In this document: one piece after another, positions 5,797 to 45,583 of the stretch
Layout: each line of letters begins with the position of its first letter
Position numbering within the stretch: position 1 is the first letter of the stretch
Source of the DNA: Candidatus Zymogenaceae bacterium
GTDB lineage: Bacteria; Desulfobacterota; Zymogenia; Zymogenales; Zymogenaceae
Length of the DNA stretch: 64,000 nucleotides
Direction of reading: 5' to 3'
Assembly: GCA_016933535.1 (NCBI GenBank)
Contig: JAFGAS010000074.1
Coordinates: 62,001 to 126,000 of the forward strand
Program-made: the position numbers and the translations under genes
The notes under the pieces: model-generated
What the model saw: the letters and a program-made list of their open reading frames with translations, nothing else
Told to the model about the DNA's origin: nothing
Database searches by the model: none

Positions 5797-6789
5797 ATGT
5801 TCAAGACCAGAATAACCGAAATGTTCGGCGTCAAGTACCCCGTCATCTGCGGTGCAATGATGTGGCTGTGTACGCCCAAGCTCTGTGCCGCCATCAGCAA
5901 CGCCGGCGGCATCGGAAACATCACCGCCGGCAACTGGAACACCGAGGACGACTTCAGAAACGCCATCAAGGAAACCAGAAAACTGACCGACAAACCCTTC
6001 TTTGTCGGCATCACCATCCTCCCCTCCGTGCGGATATCGCCGGAACACCACAAGATGTATGTAAAGGTCTGCGCCGAGGAGCAGGTCGCCGGAATCGAGG
6101 TTTCGGGATCTCCCCTGGATAAGGGCATCGGCCCGGAGGCCGTCGAGACGCTCAAGAAAGCGGGCGTCAAGATGTTTCACAAGGTCGGGGCCGTCCGTCA
6201 CGCCGTCCACGCCGAAAAGGCGGGTTATGACGGCATCTACGCCGCCGGTATCGAGGAAGGCGGCCACCCCCTCAACGACGACGTCACCACTATGATACTG
6301 ACCCCCCGGATTACCGAATCCGTGAAGATTCCCGTGGTCACCGTTGGCGGCATCTCCGACGGCAGGTCTGTCGCGGCCGCCCTCACCCTGGGAGCCGAGG
6401 GCGTCATGATGGCCACCCGGTTCATCGCCACCAAGGACTGCGTCTGTCACGATAACATCAAGCAGGAGCTCATTCGCCGCCAAGAGAATGACACCACGCT
6501 GTTCGGAAAGTCGATCGGTCTGCAGGGCCGTGCCCTCAAGAACAAGAATATTGCCGACATCCTGGCCGTGGAGGCCAAGGGCGGGGGCCTGGAGGAGCTC
6601 ATCCCCCTGATGAGCGGCGAGCGCATCAACAAGTCCTGGGAGACCGGGGACGTCGAATACGCACCCCTCATGGTCGGCCAGTCCATTGGTTTCGTTAGGG
6701 ATATCCCCACCATCCAGGAACTGCTGGACCGTATGGCCAAGGAGGCCGTTGAGCAGCTCGAAAAGACGAGCAAGAAACTACACGCATAA
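5797..6789 (+). CDS. Nitronate monooxygenase / FabK-like FMN enzyme
   Basis: A 330-residue TIM-barrel flavoprotein of the 2-nitropropane dioxygenase/FabK family. It starts with the usual FGVKYPVICGAM strand, has AGIEVSG and GIYAAGIEEGGHP (flavin-phosphate and catalytic region), VTVGGISDGRSVAAAL and GAEGVMMATRF. In the family FMN supports oxidation of alkyl nitronates or, in FabK, enoyl-thioester reduction. First gene of a plus-strand cluster with enoyl-CoA hydratase, thioesterase and dienoyl-CoA reductase, so an acyl-CoA substrate is as likely as a nitronate. AAGGAGG precedes the ATG. Confidence 0.85.
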   Translation: MFKTRITEMFGVKYPVICGAMMWLCTPKLCAAISNAGGIGNITAGNWNTEDDFRNAIKETRKLTDKPFFVGITILPSVRISPEHHKMYVKVCAEEQVAGIEVSGSPLDKGIGPEAVETLKKAGVKMFHKVGAVRHAVHAEKAGYDGIYAAGIEEGGHPLNDDVTTMILTPRITESVKIPVVTVGGISDGRSVAAALTLGAEGVMMATRFIATKDCVCHDNIKQELIRRQENDTTLFGKSIGLQGRALKNKNIADILAVEAKGGGLEELIPLMSGERINKSWETGDVEYAPLMVGQSIGFVRDIPTIQELLDRMAKEAVEQLEKTSKKLHA

Positions 6790-6806
6790 CAAACCAAACC
6801 GATACT

Positions 6807-6828
6807 CCCCGGGCCCCCGGGCCCGGGG
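6807..6828 (+). promoter_or_regulatory. GC-only intergenic hairpin
   Basis: CCCCGGGC and GCCCGGGG form a perfect 8-bp stem with a 6-nt loop between the first two genes of the cluster. There is no T-run, so it is more likely an mRNA stability or processing element, or a weak attenuator, than a terminator. Confidence 0.45.
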
Positions 6829-6843
6829 AAGCCGGAGGTTGCC

Positions 6844-7653
6844 ATGACGGATCAAATGGTCCTCGGAGAGAAGAAAGGAAACATCTTCTATATAACCCTC
6901 AACCGGCCCGAAAAGCGTAACGCCATCTCCTTTGAAATGCTGCAACAGATAGCACAGATGGTCGAAGAGCTGATCGTCGATCCCGAGATCCGAGTGATTA
7001 TACTCAAGGGCGAGGGCAAGCTTTTTTCCGCCGGTGTCGATTTTAACTCACTGGGCGCTCTGGTCGGCCGATTCATGCCTGATTCGGCCGCGGGCGGCGC
7101 ACCGATCCGGGCCGACATCAGCCGGTTCCAGCAGGTCTTGAGCCGGCTCGAGGCCACCGAAATTCCCATCATCTGTGCCATGCACAACCGGGCCTTCGGC
7201 CTGGGCGTCGAGTTTTCGTTTGTCTGTGACATCCGCCTGATGAGTGACGACTGCCAGTGGTCCATGCAGGAGCTCAAGTTCGGGCTCATCCCGGACCTCG
7301 GCGGAACCGCGCGTCTTTCGCGCATCGTCGGCCAGGCCCGCGCCATGGAGATTCTCATGACCGGGCGGACCTACACGGCGCAGCAGGCGCTGGACTGGGG
7401 TCTGGTAAACTACATCTACCCGCCGAACCGCCTGCTCGAAGAGGCCGAGAGCATCGCACGCGAAATCATCAAGATGGCGCCCCTGGCGGTTGGAGCCGCT
7501 AAAAGGGTTATCAGACGGGGCGACGGTGTTGACCTGACGACCCACCTGGACATGGAGGTCGGCATGCAGAGCATGTTGCTGCGCACCGACGACTTCAAGG
7601 AAGGGATACAGGCCCTTATGGAAAAACGAGATCCTCAATGGAAACGGAAGTAG
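6844..7653 (+). CDS. Enoyl-CoA hydratase/isomerase (crotonase family)
   Basis: A 269-residue crotonase-fold protein. The ITLNRPEKRNAIS start, the oxyanion-hole segment GEGKLFSAGVDFNSL and the second segment around MHNRAFGLGVEFSFVCDIRLMSDD are present. The first catalytic Glu of mitochondrial hydratase falls in ALxxGxxxE-like GLGVEF; the second region reads QELKFGLIPDLGGTARLSR, which matches hydratases and isomerases alike. It likely hydrates or isomerises a 2-enoyl-CoA. A ribosome site (GGAGG) lies 6 bp before the ATG. It follows the nitronate monooxygenase-like gene and precedes a hotdog thioesterase. Confidence 0.88.
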   Translation: MTDQMVLGEKKGNIFYITLNRPEKRNAISFEMLQQIAQMVEELIVDPEIRVIILKGEGKLFSAGVDFNSLGALVGRFMPDSAAGGAPIRADISRFQQVLSRLEATEIPIICAMHNRAFGLGVEFSFVCDIRLMSDDCQWSMQELKFGLIPDLGGTARLSRIVGQARAMEILMTGRTYTAQQALDWGLVNYIYPPNRLLEEAESIAREIIKMAPLAVGAAKRVIRRGDGVDLTTHLDMEVGMQSMLLRTDDFKEGIQALMEKRDPQWKRK

Positions 7654-7693
7654 GCGTGATGCGTCCTTCCGTCCATGACACACGGAGGTAGTC

Positions 7694-8173
7694 ATGATCG
7701 AACAGAAATATAAGGTCGTTGCCGACTATTGTCAGAACGGCATCCCGGCCATTCAGAGGACCGGACTAACGATTACCGACATAAGCGAGCGATACGCAAA
7801 GGTAAAGATGCCCCTGGAGGGCAACGCCAACCACATCGGGATGATGTACGCCGGCTCCCTTTTTTCCATCGGCGAGATCTCCGGCGGAGTTATCCACGGG
7901 GCGAGCTTCGATACGGAAAAATACGTTCCCATCGTCAAGGAAGTCAGCATACGCTTCAGGCGTCCGGCCCTTACCGACGTAACGCTGGAGGTCACCATAA
8001 CGAAAGAGGAGGCCGATCGGATCCAAAATGAAGCGGCCCAAAACGGCAAGGCTGATTATACGCTTGATCTGGAAATCAAGGACGCCGCCGGTGAGGTGGT
8101 CTCGATCGTCCACGGCATCTGGCAGATCAGAAAACTGCCGGAGGGGTTCGCCAGCCCGTTCCCGAAAATGTAG
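7694..8173 (+). CDS. Hotdog-fold acyl-CoA thioesterase-like protein
   Basis: A 159-residue protein with the PaaI/DUF4442-like hotdog pattern: MPLEGNANHIGMMYAGSLFS (central helix with the HxGxxxAG-like turn), followed by strands VPIVKEVSIRFRRPALTDV and VTLEVTITKEEADRI. Members hydrolyse acyl-CoA thioesters in the cytoplasm. It sits between enoyl-CoA hydratase and the dienoyl-CoA reductase-like gene, consistent with releasing CoA from an intermediate. A GGAGG site precedes the start. Specificity cannot be read. Confidence 0.75.
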   Translation: MIEQKYKVVADYCQNGIPAIQRTGLTITDISERYAKVKMPLEGNANHIGMMYAGSLFSIGEISGGVIHGASFDTEKYVPIVKEVSIRFRRPALTDVTLEVTITKEEADRIQNEAAQNGKADYTLDLEIKDAAGEVVSIVHGIWQIRKLPEGFASPFPKM

Positions 8174-8179
8174 TCGCAC

Positions 8180-8198
8180 GGCGCCGCGTAGCGGCGCC
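8180..8198 (+). promoter_or_regulatory. Perfect GC hairpin between thioesterase and reductase genes
   Basis: GGCGCCGC, GTA loop, GCGGCGCC, 7 bp after the thioesterase stop, with no T-run following. It is the second such element in this operon and may separate expression of the two halves. Confidence 0.45.
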
Positions 8199-8250
8199 CG
8201 CACTCCTATTACCGCCCCCCGCGAGGGATACTTGAGAAAGAAGAACGAAT

Positions 8251-10257
8251 ATGGATTTCATTAAGCTCTTTGAGCCGATTACCATCAATAAGACTCTTGT
8301 CAAGAACCGGATCGTCATGCCGGCGATGGGCCTATTCATGACGGACGATTATTCCTTCAATGAGCGCTACCGCTCGTTTTACCGCGAACGGGGCCGCGGC
8401 GGCGTGGGGCTCATGGTCGTGGGACCGCTGGCCGTCGACCGGGTCGGAAGCGCCCCCTTCATGCCGGGGCTCTTCGAGGACGGGTTCGTAGAGCCGCTGC
8501 GAGCATTTGTCGACGAGATGCATCAAACCACCGACGCCACTATCGGCACCCAGCTTTTTCATATGGGCCGATACGCCTATTCGGCTTTCTCGGGCATGAC
8601 CTCCATCGGGCCCTCGGCCATCCCCAGCCGTCTCACCAAGGAGACGCCCCGGGCCATGACCAAAGACGACATAGAGACGATCAAGGACGCGTTTGCGTCT
8701 GCAGCCCGGCGGGCCAAAGAGGCCGGTTTTGACTATATCGAGATCATCGCCTGCACGGGCTACCTCATCAGTCAGTTTCTCTCTCCGATCACCAACCGGC
8801 GCACCGACGAGTACGGCGGTCCTATCGAAAACCGGATGCGCTTCGGGATCGAGGTCATCCAGGCCGTACGTAAGACGGTCGGCCCGGACGTCGCCGTCGG
8901 GATTCGCATTGCCGGACACGACTTCATGGACGGGGGCCATACAAACAAGGAATCGGCCGCCTTTGCCGCCGCCGCTCAAAAAGCGGGGGTGGATGCCGTC
9001 AATGTCACCGGCGGCTGGCACGAGACCAATGTCCCCCAGCTGACCACCAACGTCCCGCCGGGTGTCTTCGTTTATCTGGCCCGGGGTATCAAGCAGCAGG
9101 TAACCGTTCCCGTGTTCGCCTCAAACCGGTTGGGCGATCCGATCCTGGCAGAAAAGGTGTTGAGGGCGGGATCGGCCGATATGATCTGCTGGGCAAGACC
9201 GCTGATTGCCGATCCCTCCCTTCCCGATAAGGTGCGCCAGCGCCGTTTTGACGAAATCGTCTCGTGTATCTCCTGCAATCAGGGATGTTTCGATTCGATT
9301 TTCTACGGAAGGGCGGTACACTGCGTTCTGAATCCGTCCGTGGGCCGGGAAGACGAGGCCAGGATCACTCGGGCCGAAAAGAAAAAGAAGGTTCTCGTGG
9401 CCGGAGGCGGACCGGGGGGAATGGAATTCGCCCTGACGGCGGCCGCGCGGGGACACGACGTGACGCTCTACGAAAAGGACGAGGACCTCGGCGGCCAGAT
9501 CAACCTTGCCAAGGTGCCGCCCGGAAAGCACGAGCTTCAAAAGATCATCGACTCGATGAAGAACCGAATGGAGCACAACGGGGTCAGGATTAAGGCCGGT
9601 GCGGCCCTCTCGGAAAAAACCGTCCGGGAAGAAAAGCCTGACTACCTTGTCGTGGCCACCGGGGCGCGGCCCATCGATATCAGGGTTCCGGGAATCGACA
9701 AGCCGCACGTCGTGAGCGCCTGGGACGTGCTGTCCGACAGGATCGCGGATATTGGTAAGCGCGTGGTAATCGTCGGCGGGAGCGCCACCGGTTGCGAGAC
9801 CGCACATTACCTCACGTCGATGGGCGTTCCCGATCCGGAAGCGTTCACGTTTCTCATGTATCACAACGCCGAAGATCCCCTCTATGCCATGGAACTCCTC
9901 CACAAGCCCGGAAGGGAGGTTGTCGTGATCGACATGGTGGACCGCATGGCCGACAACGTCAGCAAGACCGCCCGCTGGTCCCTCATGAAGAGCCTTAAGG
10001 TGATGGGCGTAAAGCTCATGCCCGGCACGAAGCTTCTGGAGATCACCGACGACGCGGTTGTCGTTGAAACCGGCAAGGGCAAAGAGACCATCCCGGCCGA
10101 CACCGTGATAATCGCCGTTGGTGCGCGTTCGGTAAACGAGCTTGCGGCCTCAGCCCAAAAGGACGGGGTTTCGGTCATCACCATCGGGGACGCCAAGGCC
10201 CCCCGCAAGATCACCGATGCGGTGCGGGAGGGATTCGAGGAAGCGTTGACAATCTGA
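8251..10257 (+). CDS. 2,4-dienoyl-CoA reductase-like FMN/4Fe-4S/FAD oxidoreductase
   Basis: A 668-residue three-domain enzyme. Residues 1-340 are an Old Yellow Enzyme barrel with FMN (FEPITINKTLVKNRIVMPAM, then FSPITNRRTDEYGG-type sequence). A 4Fe-4S site follows in SCISCNQGCFDS plus a Cys 12 residues later. The second half binds FAD and NAD(P): VLVAGGGPGGMEFALTAAARG near 385 and VVIVGGSATGCETAHYL near 507. The layout equals FadH and related unsaturated acyl-CoA or ring reductases. It would pass electrons from NAD(P)H through FAD and 4Fe-4S to FMN. The neighbouring hydratase and thioesterase favour an unsaturated acyl-CoA substrate. Confidence 0.88.
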   Translation: MDFIKLFEPITINKTLVKNRIVMPAMGLFMTDDYSFNERYRSFYRERGRGGVGLMVVGPLAVDRVGSAPFMPGLFEDGFVEPLRAFVDEMHQTTDATIGTQLFHMGRYAYSAFSGMTSIGPSAIPSRLTKETPRAMTKDDIETIKDAFASAARRAKEAGFDYIEIIACTGYLISQFLSPITNRRTDEYGGPIENRMRFGIEVIQAVRKTVGPDVAVGIRIAGHDFMDGGHTNKESAAFAAAAQKAGVDAVNVTGGWHETNVPQLTTNVPPGVFVYLARGIKQQVTVPVFASNRLGDPILAEKVLRAGSADMICWARPLIADPSLPDKVRQRRFDEIVSCISCNQGCFDSIFYGRAVHCVLNPSVGREDEARITRAEKKKKVLVAGGGPGGMEFALTAAARGHDVTLYEKDEDLGGQINLAKVPPGKHELQKIIDSMKNRMEHNGVRIKAGAALSEKTVREEKPDYLVVATGARPIDIRVPGIDKPHVVSAWDVLSDRIADIGKRVVIVGGSATGCETAHYLTSMGVPDPEAFTFLMYHNAEDPLYAMELLHKPGREVVVIDMVDRMADNVSKTARWSLMKSLKVMGVKLMPGTKLLEITDDAVVVETGKGKETIPADTVIIAVGARSVNELAASAQKDGVSVITIGDAKAPRKITDAVREGFEEALTI

Positions 10258-10569
10258 TGAAATACCGAGGCCCTCGGTCTTCATCGGGGCCCCGGATGTA
10301 CCATACGACAATCAACAGACCTTTACGCTATCTCTCACACGTCGATTTATGGTTGACCACCGCGCCCGGCAATCGGTCGGGAACACCGCGGTTTTCGGGA
10401 TCAGGTACCGTCATATGCTGATAATGAGGTTTAGATTATTTGATCGAATAATGGTTTTTTGACTGTGCGCCCGTATATACGCACGTCGCTCTCTTTCTTC
10501 ATCGCATGTCTCAATATGCGTTCGCGGCGATATCTAACTTTTTATCATTATAACAAAAGGAGTCTTTAG
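10258..10569 (+). promoter_or_regulatory. Intergenic regulatory region before the RetSat-like gene
   Basis: 312 bp without a gene. A small hairpin (ACCGAG/CTCGGT) follows the reductase stop. At 10435-10452 there is a near-perfect palindrome, ATTATT-TGATCG-AATAAT (only the central pair is imperfect), which looks like an operator. A clear -35/-10 pair was not found. AAAAGGAG precedes the next start. Confidence 0.4.
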
Positions 10570-26843: not shown

Positions 26844-27902
26844 TCACGCCCGGGCAAAAAAGCGCGCCCTGAACCTGAAGGCCACATTGACCAGTGCAAT
26901 TAGGATCGGCACCTCCAGAAGCGGCCCGATAACCGTGGCAAAGGCCTCGTTTGACGATATCCCGAAGATCGCCACGGCTACCGCGATGGCCAGCTCAAAG
27001 TCGTTGCTGGCCGCCGTAAACGAAACAGCGGTCGATTGCCCGTAATTTGCGCCGACCCTGTACGCAACGAAATAAGTCACGAACCACATCACCAGGAAGT
27101 AGATGACCAGCGGCACGGAAATGATCAAAACGTCAAATGGCCGCTGGATAATATAGGCACCCTTCAGAGAGAACATTACGATAATCGTAAACAACAGGGC
27201 AACAAGGGTAATCGGGCTGATCCGGGGGGCGAAGACCTCCTCATACCATTGTTTTCCCTTGACCCTCAGCAGGGAAAACCTCGTGGCGATACCGGCAATA
27301 AACGGGATCCCCAGATAGACAAAGACGGTCTTTGCGGCATCCCAGAACGAGATGTTTGTCTCAATCCCTTCGGCCAATCCCAGCCAATTGAGCCCCACCG
27401 TGATGAAAAGGTATATGTAGACGGCGTAAAAGAGGACCTGGAAGACGGCGTTGAACGCCACCAGGCCCACGGCCAGCTCTCGGTCGCCTTCGGCCAGTTC
27501 GTTCCAGACAATGACCATGGCGATACAGCGGGCAAGTCCGACAAGGATCACCCCGACCATGTAATGGGGATGGTTGTGGAGAAACAGAATCGCCAGTCCG
27601 AACATGAGAAGCGGCCCGACGATCCAGTTCTGCACCAGCGAGAGGGCAAGGAGCTTCTTGTGCTGAAAGATCCTGCCCATCTCCTCGTATTTGACCTTGG
27701 CCAGCGGCGGGTACATCATCAGGATGAGACCCACCGCGATGGGTATGGACGTCGTCCCGACCTGGAGCCCGGAGATGAAATCGGTCACCAAGGGCCAGAA
27801 GGTGCCGATCGCGATACCCAGGCCCATGGCGATGAATATCCAGAGCGTCAGGTAGCGATCGACAAACGATAGCCGCTTTTCCTCTGTCTGAGTCTTTTTC
27901 AT
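26844..27902 (-). CDS. ACR3-family arsenite efflux transporter
   Basis: A 352-residue, ten-helix inner-membrane protein of the Acr3 family. [21 protein letters not shown] carries the conserved Cys that binds As(III) and its typical surroundings; [23 protein letters not shown] is the second hallmark. It exports arsenite or antimonite using the proton gradient. It is the last gene of a long minus-strand island that begins with an ArsR regulator and includes ArsG-like and ArsF-like genes directly upstream. Confidence 0.93.
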
Positions 27903-27951: not shown

Positions 27952-28644
27952 TTACCCGTATATCCGGAATATGTATATCAGGCAATAGTATATCCCCACG
28001 AGGATAAAGATAATCCCGGTTACCCGTCTGACCCATATCTCGTACCGGGTGACCCTATTGAAGATCGAGTTCATCTGCTTAACACCCGCGGCCAGCAGCA
28101 CCGCAAAGGCCAGCACCGGCAGGCCGGTCGCCACTCCGTAGGCGGACGGGACGACCAGGCCGGACCCGGACGCGAGGGCGATCGGGATGAGGCTTCCGAA
28201 AAAGAGTGCCGCCGATACCGGGCAAAACGACAGCGCAAAGACCGCCCCTAAAAGAAACGCCCCGCCCAGCCCAAGCACGTCGACCGCCCGTTCAAGCCGC
28301 TTGCCCGCCCCGAATCCCGGCGCGTAGATCTTTATCAACTCCAGAAGTACCATCCCTACGATAATGAGGACGGGCCCGAGGAGTTTGTTCATATACGTCT
28401 GAAGAAACAGCGATATTCCCGGTGCCGAAAGAAGGCTTTCGACGAGGATCATGCCAAGACCCATATAAACAATCATCCTACCTAGGGTATACAGGAGTCC
28501 GGAGAGGAACACCTTCCACGGGCTCGCGACGTTCTTCCCTACGTAGGAAACGGCGGCGATATTGGTCGCCAGCGGGCAGGGGGACACCGAAGTCAGGATA
28601 CCCAGCCAGAACGCAGAGCCAACGACAACGATAAGGTCGGTCAT
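27952..28644 (-). CDS. CcdA/DsbD-like membrane protein, ArsG type
   Basis: A 230-residue six-helix protein related to CcdA. The first helix holds SVSPCPLATNIAAVSYVGKNV and a later one FALSFCPVSAALFFG, giving the paired membrane cysteines. In arsenic operons such proteins are named ArsG, described as efflux permeases for aromatic arsenicals; they could also pass reducing power across the membrane to a periplasmic thiol protein. The ArsF-like gene lies 2 bp upstream on the same strand, supporting the arsenic assignment. Confidence 0.8.
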   Translation of the reverse strand: MTDLIVVVGSAFWLGILTSVSPCPLATNIAAVSYVGKNVASPWKVFLSGLLYTLGRMIVYMGLGMILVESLLSAPGISLFLQTYMNKLLGPVLIIVGMVLLELIKIYAPGFGAGKRLERAVDVLGLGGAFLLGAVFALSFCPVSAALFFGSLIPIALASGSGLVVPSAYGVATGLPVLAFAVLLAAGVKQMNSIFNRVTRYEIWVRRVTGIIFILVGIYYCLIYIFRIYG

Positions 28645-28646
28645 TG

Positions 28647-29198
28647 CTAAATTCCTTTCAGGTAGTTACGCGTCTCGCCAATAACATATTTCTTGAACGC
28701 GGGCTTATCGTTGTAGAGGTCCCACACGCCCTCCAGCTTCTTCCATTCGACGCGCTTTCCGTCCACTACCTTTTCCAGCACGACGATGTAGTACTCCAGA
28801 GTAAAGTCGTCTATATACGCCTCGTTTTTCGGGTCCTGCATGTTGAGGACTTTCAGATGGAGGCTACCGTCGCCCATCTCTGTGAGGAACGCCTCGTTGA
28901 CGGCCTCCCGCGTGTACATCTCGATCGTGCGGCAGGAGATGCAGCGGTAGTTTCCGTGAAAGTAGTAGACATTGACGTACGTATCCGGCGAGGCTTTTTC
29001 GGCGGGAAGCGCGGTAGTCAGCGTCTCGCCCGGAGGGGCGGACGAATCGGGAGCGCCTGCCGTAGGTTCGTCGGGCATTACGACCGCCGGTGTGAGCTCA
29101 GCGTCCCGTTTGCCGCCGATCTCGCCGAGGACGAGATAGACAACGCTGGCCGCGACGAACAGCAGCAGGATGCTGGTGATTATAGTTTTCGGTTTCAT
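28647..29198 (-). CDS. ArsF-like thioredoxin-fold protein with membrane anchor
   Basis: A 183-residue protein with an N-terminal transmembrane anchor (residues ~5-25), a Pro/Ala-rich linker and a periplasmic domain with VYYFHGNYRCISCRTIEMYT. This YFHG..RC..C signature matches the ArsF-type nitroreductase subunit described with ArsE and ArsG for aromatic nitroarsenicals. The CxxC could exchange electrons with the CcdA-like partner encoded 2 bp downstream. Confidence 0.8.
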   Translation of the reverse strand: MKPKTIITSILLLFVAASVVYLVLGEIGGKRDAELTPAVVMPDEPTAGAPDSSAPPGETLTTALPAEKASPDTYVNVYYFHGNYRCISCRTIEMYTREAVNEAFLTEMGDGSLHLKVLNMQDPKNEAYIDDFTLEYYIVVLEKVVDGKRVEWKKLEGVWDLYNDKPAFKKYVIGETRNYLKGI

Positions 29199-29292: not shown

Positions 29293-29751
29293 TTACTGAA
29301 AATCATAACCGAGTTCTTTCCATTTGCCGAGGATTTGTTCTTTTGAGAAATAGCCCGCGTGACGATACAGCTCCTTCCCGTTTTCGTCGAGAAAGATCTG
29401 CGTCGGTATCCCGCGTATTCTGTATTTCTCGGCCGGTGCGGGGTCTTTCCACACGTCGTAAAAGACAATATCAAATTTCCCCTTGTATTCCTTCTTGAGC
29501 TGCTCTAGAATCGGCGCCATCATCTTGCAGGGCACGCACCGGTCGGCACCCAGGTCGATGAGGACGGGAAGCGAGTCTCCGGCGACGGCGGTGTTACCGC
29601 CAAGCATGTCGTTATTCAAGGCCCCACCCGGCCGTATTGTGGAGAGGTATAACGCGCCTGCCGCCGCAAATACAATCACTACGAACAGGATTATCTTTAC
29701 TACTGAAGGAACTCGAAGCCGTGCTTTCTTAGGTTGAGATTTCTTTACCAT
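29293..29751 (-). CDS. Membrane-anchored thioredoxin-like protein
   Basis: A 152-residue protein with one N-terminal transmembrane segment (~19-40) and a periplasmic thioredoxin domain. The active site is DRCVPCKMMAPIL, the cis-Pro is in RGIPTQIFLDENG. It could serve as the ArsE-like partner of the ArsF and ArsG proteins downstream or reduce cytochrome apoprotein thiols for the tetrahaem protein upstream. A 94-bp gap separates it from the ArsF-like gene. Confidence 0.88.
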   Translation of the reverse strand: MVKKSQPKKARLRVPSVVKIILFVVIVFAAAGALYLSTIRPGGALNNDMLGGNTAVAGDSLPVLIDLGADRCVPCKMMAPILEQLKKEYKGKFDIVFYDVWKDPAPAEKYRIRGIPTQIFLDENGKELYRHAGYFSKEQILGKWKELGYDFQ

Positions 29752-29920: not shown

Positions 29921-31534
29921 TTAATTATCCTCCGGGCATCGTATTATCGCTAAATCCCTTTCATACTGAAAATCGTCGTCGTTTTCCCGGTCGTGGCACG
30001 AAAGACACGTGCTCTCGACGAAAAGCTTCTGGGGGGTGACTCCCTTGGATATATGGAGGCTCCCCGGACCGTGGCAGGTCTCGCACTGAACGCCCAGGAG
30101 GTCTTTTGCCGTCAGGATATCCTTAAAACCTCCGAACTTCCTGAAACCCGTCGTATGGCACCTGATGCAGTCGGACTCGAACTGTCTCTCATCTTTTACG
30201 AGCGTTTCGAATGCGACCGCATGCTTCGTATCTTCCCAGAAGTTGTAGTGGCCCTTGTGGCAGCTCTTGCAGCTTTCCGCGCCCACGTAATGGGGCTCGC
30301 GCGAAAGTTCCCGGGGATCCCGCTCGCCCTTCTCCAGCTTCTCCATCTTCGCATTATTCACGTACTTCACGAGGTTCATCTTGTAGTGATCCTCGATCTT
30401 TTTTATCCCGGGGTCTTCGGCAAAGCGCCGGTCAAGCTCCACGGTAGACGACCGTATCGTGTTGTTCTGCCCATCTCCCAAGGCCCCCTCGATTTCGGCA
30501 ATTTCCTTTTTTGCTTTTTCGATCTCGGCAAGGAGTATCGCCTCGGAGTCTCCGGAGTCCTTACCGTCCCTCTTGGTCTTCTGGATGTCCTCATAGAGCC
30601 TCTCAAGCTGTTGGAGCCGCAGCTTCTTATTATGGTATTCAGCCGACCTTGTATCCGATCCGCCTTCGACGGTAATCATGTAGGGGCGCTGTGGGTTCTG
30701 TATCGAGATGTCGAGCCGATGAATATACTGTCCCCTCGGCAGGCCTTGAACGAGCAATGAAGAGCCGAGCTTTGAAGGCCGATTGTGCGAATAATCGGGC
30801 AGGTGGCCGACGATAAAGAGGTCGACGCCGTCAAACTTCTGCGCGAGCTTTTCGGCCTCCCTGAAGCCGGTATGCGACAGGACGATGATGAAGTCGGACT
30901 TCCCTTCGAGTTCCCTGAGCACCTTCTTGAGGGCCGCGGTCTCGCTCTCGAGGTAGATGCCGTCTTCGCCCATGTCCTTTCGAAACCCGGTATCCCCGCC
31001 GATCACCGCCGTGATCCCCACTCGAAATCCCGAGAGGTTCTTGACAACGTAGGGCGTAAAGACGTAGGAACCGTCCTTATCGTAAAGGACATTTGCCGAC
31101 AGGAACGGGAAATCCGCCATGTCTTCGAGGTCTTTCAGGTAATCGAGACCGAGGGCGAATTCATTCTCCCCCAGGCCCAGCGCGGTCCACCCCATTGCGT
31201 TCAGGCTGTCGATGATCCTTCTCCCCTGGATATCGAGGCTGGCGTCCGGGTTCTGACCGTAGTTTGCACCGCTGTACAGGAGATCTCCCGCATCCAGGAG
31301 GAGGATATCGTTCCTTTCTGCCATTACTTCGCTGATATAGGTCGCTTTCCTGGCAAGACCGCCAAGCTGGTGGCTGTGTCACCCGCAGGGCTCGGCTTCA
31401 CCGTACGTATCGTTTGAGAATATAATGGTGAAATCCGCGGTGCTCGTCGATATCGATCTTTTACAGCATATAATGACAATCAGCACCGCTAAGATGAGGA
31501 CAAAGATTATCACGCCCTTTTTCCGCATGTCCAT
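29921..31534 (-). CDS. Candidate selenoprotein: degenerate metallophosphatase with tetrahaem cytochrome domain
   Basis: The frame 29921-31324 looks 5 prime truncated, starting inside a metallophosphatase fold at MAERNDILLLDAGDLL. Upstream it stays open except for one TGA at 31379-31381, back to an ATG at 31534 with a GAGGAG site 7 bp before it. Read through, it gives 537 residues: an N-terminal membrane anchor (~8-24), then FSNDTYGEAEPCG, Sec52, HSHQLGGLARKATYI. From memory, UshA-like relatives have Cys at this place (Pro-Cys-Gly-Cys). Metal motifs are altered (SNDTYG, GENEF, GHLPDY), so phosphatase activity is doubtful. The C-terminal ~160 residues carry four CxxCH haem sites (CKSCH, CIRCH, CETCH, CLSCH), resembling cytochrome c554. 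Likely periplasmic redox protein. Confidence 0.82.
31349..31381 (-). promoter_or_regulatory. UGA codon with bacterial SECIS-like hairpin
   Basis: After the TGA (31381-31379), CTTGGC (31366-31361) and GCCAGG (31354-31349) pair as a 6-bp stem with the loop GGTCTT. The GGU is the seventh codon after UGA, the same offset as the functional GGU loop of E. coli fdhF. The protein reading through it (HSHQLGGLARK) is conserved-looking. Confidence 0.78.
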
Positions 31535-31627
31535 GGAAATTCTCCTCAACTCGCCCTAGTGTTTCGTATGGGGTAGCCACTTCTCGACCGCCGCCTTTAT
31601 GTATGTCTCCCGCCTTTTGGTTCTGTT

Positions 31628-32035
31628 TCACGAACAGCACGAGCCGCCCCCGGCCGCACCTCCGTTGAGCTTCCTTCGCCCCTCCTCCACCACCTGCGAG
31701 ATCGGGTCATCGCCAACCGGGGTGCTCCCTTTGTTCATCCCGAGGTCTGAGAGCCTGAGGTGCTCAAAAGCTGAAATCTCCGCCTTTTCCAGCGTTTTCC
31801 TGGCGCAGTCGATGGGGCAGCTGTCAATGGCTAGGATACCTGCGGCGGCCTTCGTCGATTCGATCATCCCGGAGATGCCCCCGCCGATCCCCGCAAGGCA
31901 AAACATATTGCCGACGCCTTCACGGGTCAGTTTCCGCGCAGCCTGGTCCGCGACCGCCCCGACATCGGATGCGCCGGAACAGGAGAAGATCAGCGTCGGG
32001 GCCTTTGAGCATTGACAATCATCTTTCGCACTCAT
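31628..32035 (-). CDS. Cys-rich putative zinc-binding protein (DGC-domain family)
   Basis: A 135-residue small protein with a CQCS start, FSCSGASDVGAVADQAARKL, MFCLAGIGGGISGM, ILAIDSCPIDCARKTLE and a CC near the end (GGGSCCS). This Cys pattern matches the DGC or 'putative zinc-binding' family that often accompanies arsenic permeases and small thioredoxins. Metal or persulfide handling is the usual suggestion. It lies between the small thioredoxin and the selenoprotein candidate on the same strand. Confidence 0.8.
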   Translation of the reverse strand: MSAKDDCQCSKAPTLIFSCSGASDVGAVADQAARKLTREGVGNMFCLAGIGGGISGMIESTKAAAGILAIDSCPIDCARKTLEKAEISAFEHLRLSDLGMNKGSTPVGDDPISQVVEEGRRKLNGGAAGGGSCCS

Positions 32036-32114: not shown

Positions 32115-32351
32115 CTACTTCAAGAACTCCTTTATCTCGTCGGCCGTCAGGAGCTTTCCCGCCGAAACGACCTTCCCGTCGACGGCCAGCGCCGGCGTCG
32201 ACATGACGCCGAAAGACATGATCTTGTCGATGTCACTAACCTTCTCGACCTCGTAGTCGATGCCGAGCGCTTTGGCCGCGGCCTCGGCGTTTTCCTGGAG
32301 GCGGTTGCACTTCATGCAGCCCGTTCCCAGGATCTGAATTTTCTTAGTCAT
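32115..32351 (-). CDS. Small thioredoxin/glutaredoxin-like thiol protein
   Basis: A 78-residue single thioredoxin fold of the MTH895 type. The site is LGTGCMKCNRLQENAEAAAK and the cis-Pro region is GVMSTPALAVDGKVVSAG. Such minimal thioredoxins are frequently found next to ArsP-like permeases and DGC proteins, as here. It likely delivers electrons to a neighbour in the island. The cytoplasmic location is inferred from the lack of a signal. Confidence 0.9.
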   Translation of the reverse strand: MTKKIQILGTGCMKCNRLQENAEAAAKALGIDYEVEKVSDIDKIMSFGVMSTPALAVDGKVVSAGKLLTADEIKEFLK

Positions 32352-32572: not shown

Positions 32573-33346
32573 TTAGATCTGGATACCGAAGTAGATGAAG
32601 ATGTACTTCAGCGAGACGTAGAAAAAAAGGAGCCCGAAAAGCGTCTTCAAAATATGCGGTTTGAATTTAGCCACGAGTTTCGCCCCGAATACAGCCCCGA
32701 TCAACGCCCCGATTCCGAGGGTGACGGCAACGGGGATATTGACCACCTGCTGGTATATTTTAAAGGCCGCCCCGACAAGCGCCATCCAGAAAAACGCGGC
32801 CATGGAAGTCCCGATAGCCAGCTTTACCGGCGCCTTAAAAAGATAGATAAAGGATGGCACCAGGGCGTATCCGCCACCCAGCCCGATGATCCCGGTAAGG
32901 AATCCTACAGCAGATCCAAGCGCTGATTTTGAAGCAAATGTTCCCGGCATATCAGGTCCTTGAGATGCCGGGACTTTTTTCAGGAGACCTTCATAGAGCA
33001 TCCTCACGGAGACAAGAACGAAAGCGATCCCAATAATGAGGTCTATCAGGTCCCCATAGGGTTTGATATAGCCGAAGACGATCGAGCCAATGATGACCCC
33101 GATAATCCCGCTCAATCCCGTTTGCAGCGCGGTCGTCTTGTCGACGTTTTTCATTCGCATATGCTGTATCGCGCCCGAACCCGCGGTAAAGACCACGGCT
33201 GTTAGCGTCGTTCCCACCGCAAAGGCGGGGTCAAAATGAAAACCGAACCGGATCACCGGCATCATGAGGGCGCATCCGCCGGTCCCGAGCAGGCCGCCGA
33301 CTACACCCGCCACGAGACCCGTAACGAGATAAATGATATACATCAT
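32573..33346 (-). CDS. TauE/SafE-family sulfite/organic anion exporter
   Basis: A 257-residue, 7-8 helix membrane protein of the TauE family: GLVAGVVGGLLGTGGCALMMPV in the first half and GFLTGIIGLGGGYALVPSFIYL in the second are the duplicated signature. The family moves sulfite, sulfoacetate or similar anions. In this island it may export a sulfur or arsenic oxyanion, or supply sulfur; neither can be settled from sequence. It lies between the ArsP-like permease and the thiol proteins. Confidence 0.87.
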   Translation of the reverse strand: MMYIIYLVTGLVAGVVGGLLGTGGCALMMPVIRFGFHFDPAFAVGTTLTAVVFTAGSGAIQHMRMKNVDKTTALQTGLSGIIGVIIGSIVFGYIKPYGDLIDLIIGIAFVLVSVRMLYEGLLKKVPASQGPDMPGTFASKSALGSAVGFLTGIIGLGGGYALVPSFIYLFKAPVKLAIGTSMAAFFWMALVGAAFKIYQQVVNIPVAVTLGIGALIGAVFGAKLVAKFKPHILKTLFGLLFFYVSLKYIFIYFGIQI

Positions 33347-33448: not shown

Positions 33449-34750
33449 CTACGAAAAAAAGGTACCATAGATCAGTCCGCTGATCGTAGACATCACGACC
33501 ACCAGAGTCACGTATACGACGGTCTTTTTCGTCCCCAAAACGCTCCTGATCACCAGCATCGACGGCAGCGACAGCGCCGGGCCCGCCAGCAGCAGCGCCA
33601 GCGCGGGGCCTTTACCCATCCCCGCGCCGATGAGCCCCTGCAGGATTGGCACCTCCGTGAGCGTGGCGAAGTACATGAAGCCCCCCGCCACCGAGGCAAA
33701 GAGGTTTGCCCAAAGCGAGTTTCCTCCCACGGCCCAGGCAACCCACGCCGAAGGGATGATCCCCTCGTGGCCGGGGCGCCCGAGGAGGAAGCCCGCGATC
33801 AGGACGCCGAACAACAGCAGCGGAAGGATCAGCTTGGCGAAGTCCCACGTGGAGGAAAACCATCCGCTGGCCTCACCCTTGTCCAACGCGGTGACAATAG
33901 ACAGACCGGTCACCCCGACAGCGAACGGGACCAATGGATAGCCGGGCGCTATCAGCGCCGCCACCACGACGCCGGCGGCAACAAGCACGACCCGGAGCCA
34001 TTTCACGCCGAACCAGCCGATAAGAATGAGGCCGAGCCCTGCCGCAAAAAGCGAGACCAGTATCCACTTGGCCGCATAGACGAGGGCAAAGAGGCCCGTC
34101 GAGCCCTCGGGGCTGCCCCAGGTGGCGAATATGAGGATAGCCACGAGGACGAAAAAGAAAAGGGCATTCTGCCACAACGTCCTCTTTGGGTCGGAGGTCG
34201 GCACGGCCGCAAGCACGGCCGCCCTGCCGACTTCTTCTTTCCTGAAAAACAGGTGCATGAGAAGCCCAATAACGATAGAGAAAATAATTGCCCCCACCGC
34301 GCGGGCAATGCCCAGTTCCAGGCCGAGTATCCGCGCCGTGAGGATGATGGCCAGGACGTTAATCGCCGGTCCCGAGTAGAGAAACGCCGAGGCCGGCCCC
34401 AGCCCCGCGCCCATCCGGTAGATGCCGGCAAAGAGCGGCATCACCGTGCATGAGCATACCGCCAGCACCGAGCCGGATACCGACGCCACGCCGTAGGCCA
34501 GGACCTTGTTGGCCCCCGCGCCGAGATATTTCATGACCGAATCCTGGGCCACGAACACGGCGATCGCCCCGGCGATGAAAAAGGCGGGGATCAGGCACAG
34601 CAGGACGTGCTCCCGGGTATACCATTTTGCCAGGGCAAGGGCCTCAAAGATCGCGTTGTCAAACCGGGGCGCGCCCAGCGGCATAAAATAGAGGCCGAGA
34701 AAGGCCCCGATTATGAGAAGCAGTATCTTATATTCTTGTTTCCAGTTCAT
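33449..34750 (-). CDS. Permease of the ArsP/UPF0718 (DUF318) family
   Basis: A ~433-residue protein with about ten transmembrane helices. VASVSGSVLAVCSCTVMPLFAGIYRMGAGLGPASAFLYSGPAINVLA is diagnostic (Cys pair CSC followed by PLF and the GP.N motif). ArsP members export trivalent organoarsenicals; others move unknown substrates. The ATG at 34750 (MNWKQEY) is preferred; a TTG at 34783 would add 11 residues. It directly follows the ArsR gene, so it is the first structural gene of the island. Confidence 0.87.
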   Translation of the reverse strand: MNWKQEYKILLLIIGAFLGLYFMPLGAPRFDNAIFEALALAKWYTREHVLLCLIPAFFIAGAIAVFVAQDSVMKYLGAGANKVLAYGVASVSGSVLAVCSCTVMPLFAGIYRMGAGLGPASAFLYSGPAINVLAIILTARILGLELGIARAVGAIIFSIVIGLLMHLFFRKEEVGRAAVLAAVPTSDPKRTLWQNALFFFVLVAILIFATWGSPEGSTGLFALVYAAKWILVSLFAAGLGLILIGWFGVKWLRVVLVAAGVVVAALIAPGYPLVPFAVGVTGLSIVTALDKGEASGWFSSTWDFAKLILPLLLFGVLIAGFLLGRPGHEGIIPSAWVAWAVGGNSLWANLFASVAGGFMYFATLTEVPILQGLIGAGMGKGPALALLLAGPALSLPSMLVIRSVLGTKKTVVYVTLVVVMSTISGLIYGTFFS

Positions 34751-34893
34751 CCTAAACCCTATCGGACTTGGCCGCTTTCCCAAGTAGCCATTGATAATCG
34801 TAAAAAAAAGATTCTATGTGAGAAAATACAGTACGTAACTCGCGTTCTTTCTCTTCACGAACCGTCTCCTCCGGATACGTATCCGGCGATTCT

Positions 34894-35235
34894 CTACTTC
34901 GCGTCCCCTTTCATCTGGCCCAGGGCGCTTCGACTGTCCTCGATAACCGATTCCTGCACGTCGGCAACGCAGGTAAAGAAGTTCAGGACGCACGGTATTT
35001 TCAGGGTGTAGAAGACCTGCGTCCCCCGTTTTTCATCGTCGATAATACCGGCGCCCTTCAGGATGGAGAGGTGCTTGGAAACCGTGGACATATCCGCGCC
35101 GATCATCTCGGTCAAATCCAGTACGCACCGTTCCCGCCGGGCCAGTTCATCCACGATAAAAAGCCTTGTCGGGTGGGCCAACGCCTTAAAGATACGGGAT
35201 TTGGCCTCGTAGTATGTCCGTGTCGTTGGATCCAT
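34894..35235 (-). CDS. ArsR-family transcriptional repressor
   Basis: A 113-residue winged-helix protein: FKALAHPTRLFIVDELARRERCVLDLTEMIGADMSTVSKHLSILKGAGII. A Cys in RRERCVLDL matches the first Cys of the ELCVCD-type metal box but the second is absent; two more cysteines near the C-terminus (CVLNFFTCVAD) could complete an As(III) site. It probably represses the island and is released by arsenite. AGGAGCCAAGG precedes the ATG. Confidence 0.9.
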   Translation of the reverse strand: MDPTTRTYYEAKSRIFKALAHPTRLFIVDELARRERCVLDLTEMIGADMSTVSKHLSILKGAGIIDDEKRGTQVFYTLKIPCVLNFFTCVADVQESVIEDSRSALGQMKGDAK

Positions 35236-44761: not shown

Positions 44762-45583
44762 ATGGAAACCTTTGATATTTCGCAGATCACCAAAGACGGG
44801 ATCGAGGAGAAGCGAGACGCCGTCACCGAGGAAATCCCGCTCACGATCCAGGTCAACGGGGAAGAAATCGCCACGCTGCTGACCAGCCCCGGCGATCTTA
44901 AGGACCTCGTCATGGGTTTTCTCTTCACGGCAGGGTTGATTCGGGACGCGGCATCGGTGCGGGCCGTCACCATCGACGAGCAGCGGTGGAAGGCCGATGT
45001 AATCACGACCGATCAGGGAATCGGCTCCGATCTGGCTTTTAAGCGGATATACACCTCGGGTTGCGGCAGGGGAGTTGTTTTCTCCACGAGCCTCGATCTC
45101 ATAAACAGGGTAAAACTCCCCTCGGGATTTGCAATTGAGGCCGTCGCGATAATCGCGCTCATGAAGACCCTCCTGACCGGATCGCAGGAGCACCGCGCTA
45201 CCGGCGGGGTTCACAGCGCGGCCCTCGCCGACGGGAACGGCCTGTGGATATTCATGGATGACATCGGCAGGCATAATGCCGTCGACAAGGCCGTCGGCCG
45301 GGCGCTTTCGGACCGAATTGGATTTTCCCAAACTGTGCTGCTGACCAGCGGGAGGGTATCATCGGAGATCCTTGGTAAAGTCCTGGCGTGCCGCATCCCG
45401 ATCATCGTCTCGGCCGGGGCCCCCACCAACCAGGCGGTCAAGCTCGCCCGCGAAACGAACGTGACAATGGTCGCCCACGTCCGTGGGACACGGATGAACG
45501 TATACAGTGGCTTGGATCGGATCAAGACAGACACGCCACGCGCCGTGGACGGCGTATCGGGAGGTATCGATGACCTCCGATAA
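44762..45583 (+). CDS. fdhD: FdhD sulfurtransferase for formate dehydrogenase
   Basis: 273 residues. [78 protein letters not shown] and [15 protein letters not shown] are family hallmarks. FdhD passes sulfur from IscS to the molybdenum/tungsten cofactor of formate dehydrogenase. Its place after a desulfurase set fits. The catalytic loop shows one Cys (GCGRG) rather than a CxxC pair. Formate dehydrogenases in such organisms are often selenoproteins. Confidence 0.93.

Follow-up and report, generated by a model that had tools for sequence, protein, structure and literature searches.

A predicted UshA-like tetrahaem selenoprotein encoded among arsenic genes in a Candidatus Zymogenaceae bacterium

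A gene on the minus strand of a 64,000-nucleotide stretch of Candidatus Zymogenaceae DNA (the window) encodes a UshA-like protein with four haem sites, and the UGA at its residue 52 is almost certainly decoded as selenocysteine (Sec) by SelB and tRNA-Sec, helped by an overlapping SECIS hairpin. A preliminary description of the sequence had proposed Sec at this TGA, and the reading is now based on membership in a protein family, the pattern of Sec and Cys among homologues, a codon-level SECIS signature, and the sel genes of the genome. The gene is a further member of a selenoprotein family that has already been catalogued in NCBIfam and in papers since 2008. As the best overall explanation, we regard it as fairly probable that the product is a Sec-decoded, metal-site-degenerate periplasmic relay of electrons from thiols or selenols to haem, and that the window copy is a paralogue in an arsenic (ars) operon. 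Three points are new here: the ars-operon context of the window copy, the SECIS test at codon level, and the loss of most metal ligands.

Reading frame, family and selenocysteine codon

The reading frame starts at an ATG (31534-31532, minus strand) and is open past a single in-frame TGA (31381-31379) to a TAA at 29921. The read-through protein consists of an N-terminal helix, a 5'-nucleotidase-like domain, the segment EPCG-U52-HSHQLGGLARK, and four CxxCH haem sites. The features of the gene are as follows.

31542-31547, minus strand: ribosome-binding site GAGGAG, 7 bases before the ATG (sequence)
29921-31534, minus strand: UshA-like tetrahaem selenoprotein gene, 537 aa, TGA read as Sec (translation; NF041198, 453.4 bits)
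31466-31528, minus strand: N-terminal membrane helix, residues 3-23 (AlphaFold/DSSP helix 3-23; hydrophobic sequence)
31379-31381, minus strand: in-frame TGA, Sec codon, residue 52, EPCG-U (sequence; Sec/Cys column in homologues)
31349-31366, minus strand: bacterial SECIS-like hairpin CUUGGC-GGUCUU-GCCAGG, with GGU (31360-31358) in the loop as codon +7 (comparative codon data)
30257-30271, minus strand: haem c site 1, CKSCH, residues 422-426 (motif; PF13435)
30155-30169, minus strand: haem c site 2, CIRCH, residues 456-460 (motif)
30071-30085, minus strand: haem c site 3, CETCH, residues 484-488 (motif)
29993-30007, minus strand: haem c site 4, CLSCH, residues 510-514 (motif)

Under translation table 11, the ORF begins at 31324 and encodes 467 aa. 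The preliminary description held that this ORF starts inside a fold, and 31324 does fall within a conserved domain; its upstream extension through one TGA to an ATG with a ribosome site has exact coordinates, its membrane anchor corresponds to the helix of residues 3-23, and its 6-bp hairpin with a GGTCTT loop and GGU as codon +7 was recovered at 31366-31349. Without read-through of TGA, annotation tools would cut such genes short, in this case to the 467-aa ORF.

The read-through protein matches the NCBIfam profile NF041198, "UshA-like (seleno)protein", with 453.4 bits against a cut-off of 275. The match covers profile positions 3-519 of 519 and protein residues 14-525, flanking the TGA on both sides. 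The NF041198 motif, PCG[U/C] followed by GGLA[RK], is present as EPCGUHSHQLGGLARK, and the C-terminal multihaem cytochrome region of the family is represented by the four CxxCH sites (PF13435, 2e-15). Pfam matches comprise a calcineurin-like phosphoesterase region and Cytochrome_C554. Whether the family had been listed before was left open in the preliminary description and can now be answered: a 2008 ocean metagenome survey names "COG0737, UshA-like, CxU" (PMC2398784), a "UshA-like protein" is included in a 2022 review (PMC9312934), and a 2026 review names NF041198 in a table of known and predicted selenoprotein families (PMC13188914). Literature searches on the NF041198 family found no functional study and no experiment on any member. 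The window protein resembles NF041198 UshA_like_PCGU (COG0737 UshA-like, CxU) in its whole-length profile match, EPCGU motif, and four haem sites, but differs from other members in being encoded in an arsenic operon beside a thioredoxin gene. A related N-terminal domain with Sec defines NF049981, UshA-like (seleno)protein family 2 (CxxU); this family differs in having a 262-position profile without the cytochrome part, to which the window protein scores 52 bits against a cut-off of 140. Six shorter relatives with the CxxU spacing (CPTU, CPSU, or CHAU in L033, L035, L039, L040, L042, and L045) are similar to NF049981 and keep the same GGU apex downstream.

A scan of genome contigs with the single protein gave no match, and an alignment-based scan gave 80 loci. 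In a set of 118 relatives, most of the strong matches have a single TGA, which lies in the EPCGU motif. The preliminary description placed Cys at the Sec position in relatives, and the homologue alignment does give Sec or Cys at position 52 across many phyla, with EPCGU or EPCGC aligned in about 100 homologues. In a wider scan of named genomes, EPCGU is found in, for example, Desulfobacterota, and EPCGC in Scalindua, Brocadiaceae, Planctomycetes, Poribacteria, Nitrospirae, and myxobacteria. Two further TGA-bearing NF041198-family members are present in the same genome. In a wider alignment, the Sec/Cys52 column is invariant and Cys50 is not, so Sec, and not the CxU pair, is the element that is kept; Sec occurs without Cys50 as ASGU in L036 and DSGU in L038, and a Cys-Sec pair therefore cannot be general. 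One near full-length member (L021/L152, G111:C168) has PSGR in place of PCGU, having lost both the Cys and the Sec while the remaining profile is kept. At another locus (L080), two members are adjacent in tandem (6639-8519 and 8488-10299), one with Sec (ATCGU) and one with Cys (DVCGC).

The comparison of codons was made on 48 Sec genes and 27 Cys genes obtained by a motif search, many more being found by profile. Codon +7, which encodes the second Gly of GGLA, is GGU in 45/48 Sec versus 4/27 Cys genes (Fisher p = 3e-12, a value that overstates the contrast because related genes are not independent), and a hairpin with GGU in its loop is present in 45/48 versus 2/27. Since the Gly residue is kept in both groups, the GGU bias points to selection on the RNA, as expected of a SECIS element. 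Distantly related bacteria share one GGC-GGU-CU(U/G) apex. When the window gene is taken by itself, GGU at +7 together with an equally stable hairpin arises in 2.8% of 20,000 synonymous re-draws, which is weak evidence on its own; folding of a 72-nt segment gives a minimum-energy structure other than the SECIS hairpin (z = 0.35), and the hairpins of some homologues are weak (about -5 kcal/mol). The SECIS case is a strong one that rests on the comparative codon result and not on the hairpin of the window gene alone.

It is very improbable that the TGA results from a sequencing error or truly ends translation, with the functional gene starting at 31324, where a table-11 ORF does exist, because the equivalent codon is the same TGA in 47 other genes from many genomes (which rules out sequencing error), the profile matches on either side of it, Cys substitutes for it elsewhere, it is followed by the GGU codon bias, and a start at 31324 would drop the membrane helix and the first strand. 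When codon bias on either side of a TGA was used to look for further Sec genes across the whole window, no other convincing case emerged.

The four sel genes, whose presence had been proposed earlier as a check on the Sec reading, are represented in the genome by selA (586 bits), the tRNA-Sec gene selC (75.6 bits, also found by ARAGORN), and selD (360.6 bits). The fourth, selB, was not found in this assembly, which is 89% complete in 86 contigs and in which EF-Tu is present only as fragments at contig ends; selB is present in 3/3 same-family genomes. The gap could not be placed through gene neighbours, and the neighbours of selB differ between relatives. Loss of the Sec system is unlikely, since the genome retains the other three sel genes along with several TGA genes. 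The selD gene (L013, G000:C78:16036-16968) has one in-frame TGA of its own and likely encodes a selenoprotein itself. FdhD, which the earlier reading placed at 44.8 kb, lies at 44762-45583 (TIGR00129, above cut-off).

The probable arsenic operon of the window copy

The selenoprotein gene lies within a one-strand series of genes in the order arsR-arsP-TauE-arsE-DGC-[selenoprotein gene-trx]-arsF-arsG-acr3. Strand and spacing suggest that the genes from arsR to acr3 form one operon, whose members, apart from the selenoprotein gene, are listed below.

34894-35235, minus strand: ArsR-type repressor, probable operon head (PF01022)
33449-34783, minus strand: ArsP-type permease (PF03773)
32573-33346, minus strand: TauE/SafE permease (PF01925)
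32115-32351, minus strand: ArsE/MTH895 thioredoxin-like protein, 78 aa (TIGR00412, 111 bits, cut-off 62)
31628-32035, minus strand: DGC-domain protein (PF08859, 2e-28)
29293-29751, minus strand: membrane-anchored thioredoxin-like protein, CVPC (PF00085, 1.8e-14)
28647-29198, minus strand: ArsF family protein (NF040494, 95.9 bits, cut-off 60)
27952-28644, minus strand: ArsG family membrane protein, DsbD/CcdA-like (NF040495, 288 bits, cut-off 200)
26844-27902, minus strand: ACR3 arsenite efflux transporter (TIGR00832, 444 bits, cut-off 282.8)

The content of arsP, arsE, DGC, arsF, arsG, and acr3 is common to the arsEFG-acr3 type operons of the phylum, arranged there as arsP-arsE-(DGC)-arsF-arsG-acr3, from which the window operon differs in having the selenoprotein and thioredoxin genes inserted between DGC and arsF. 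From the arsenic island, the preliminary description had suggested an electron-transfer job on As, Se, or S species. The location holds, but the ars gene set is found beside no other sampled copy: it is absent from the flanks of about 90 other family copies, where a few single hits are isolated, and no selenoprotein gene was found in flanks of about 1.5 kb around 30 other arsF loci of the phylum. Recurrent ars linkage is thus not observed for the family, and the position of the window copy is a poor guide to what the family itself acts on.

The window copy shares 43-48% identity with the copies in three same-family genomes and with the second copy in its own genome, and its tree position among same-family copies is poorly resolved. 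An aldehyde-oxidoreductase-like gene lies downstream of the second copy and of the copies in the three same-family genomes; with 200.8 bits, where the equivalog cut-off is 868, it is only family-like. In the simplest reading, the window copy seems to be a divergent paralogue that came to lie in the ars operon. No conserved family-wide partner was found by gene neighbourhood, and the recurrences seen are weak, namely the aldehyde-oxidoreductase-like gene in four other same-family copies and a multihaem protein of about 740 aa near six other loci. The same-family copies that precede an aldehyde:ferredoxin-oxidoreductase-like gene are L131-L134. The protein of about 740 aa has an NrfH-like multihaem part and is encoded on the opposite strand (L142:2577-4823; similar in L051, L098, L113, L130, and L137).

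Three ArsF-family proteins from other genomes (L193 in G101, L194 in G180, and L195 in G031) have a TGA at the first Cys of CxxC, giving QUVTC, RUPTC, and EUKVC, and two of these genes have 8-bp hairpins just downstream of the TGA. A check of the 2026 review on selenoproteins of prokaryotes did not find ArsF/NF040494, so the UxxC form of ArsF may be an unlisted selenoprotein.

Proposed function

In the proposed mechanism, the N-terminal helix would anchor the protein in the membrane and its body would lie in the periplasm, a placement suggested by the four CxxCH motifs because haem c is attached on that side. The Cys50-Gly-Sec52 loop would be the redox-active site, forming and breaking a selenenylsulfide, and electrons would pass between thiol carriers and the four haems by way of this loop. 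The chances that the protein is such a thiol/selenol-to-cytochrome adaptor are about even. The Sec loop has a pLDDT below 50 in the AlphaFold model, so the position of Sec with respect to the haems cannot be read from it. The thioredoxin-like protein and the DsbD-like ArsG, both encoded just downstream, are tentatively put forward as the thiol partners in the window operon, and the window copy would presumably serve redox steps that accompany arsenical handling. As part of an operon with named redox partners, the window copy offers a concrete assay system for the family.

Alternatively, the chief role of Sec52 and Cys50 could be to bind a soft metal(loid), for instance As(III), Hg, or Se species, which the haems would sense or reduce, and the window copy would have been recruited to the ars operon for this reason. 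Such a function is consistent with the location within the ars operon and with the remark that metal or metalloid binding may apply to many predicted selenoproteins (PMC13188914), but we consider it unlikely. No other sampled member adjoins an ars set and 30 ars operons of the phylum have no such gene nearby, so As binding is not evidently the function of the family, and the absence of Cys50 in some Sec homologues also argues against it. Also unlikely is that the selenoprotein and the adjoining thioredoxin form a periplasmic selenol/haem redox module added to arsEFG-acr3 and acting directly on arsenicals or on the ArsEF reductant; if true, this module would be a Sec-dependent, cytochrome-linked branch of arsenic detoxification that has not been described before.

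The 5'-nucleotidase-like domain and the haem stretch

The protein had been described as tetrahaem and phosphatase-derived, which agrees with the four CxxCH motifs, present in 17/17 aligned members, and with the fold of the first domain, which matches CD73/UshA. Most of the metal ligands, however, are not conserved. The ligands of UshA, given in UshA residue numbering, were mapped through the profile alignment, and the equivalents are kept in 0/17 members for N116, 0/17 for H117, 1/17 for H43, 7/17 for H217, and 9/17 for H252. With most of its metal ligands lost, the domain is probably not a working phosphatase. An active metallophosphoesterase or a SoxB-like thiosulfohydrolase, in which Sec would be a substitute metal ligand or the nucleophile, is accordingly an improbable reading: the 5'-nucleotidase fold, the position of Sec in a loop that follows the first metal motif, and the rank of SoxB as the second-best family would suit it, but the SoxB score of 85.9 bits is far below the cut-off of 550, none of the 17 members has UshA-type N116 or H117, and the other ligands are variable.

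The fold of the first domain is common to the UshA and CD73 5'-nucleotidases, SoxB, and the window protein. Unlike these enzymes, the window protein is without the UshA-type nucleotidase C-terminal domain and has an added Sec loop and a tetrahaem domain. Its C-terminal four-haem stretch matches cytochrome c554 (PF13435), from which it differs in being fused to the UshA-like domain.
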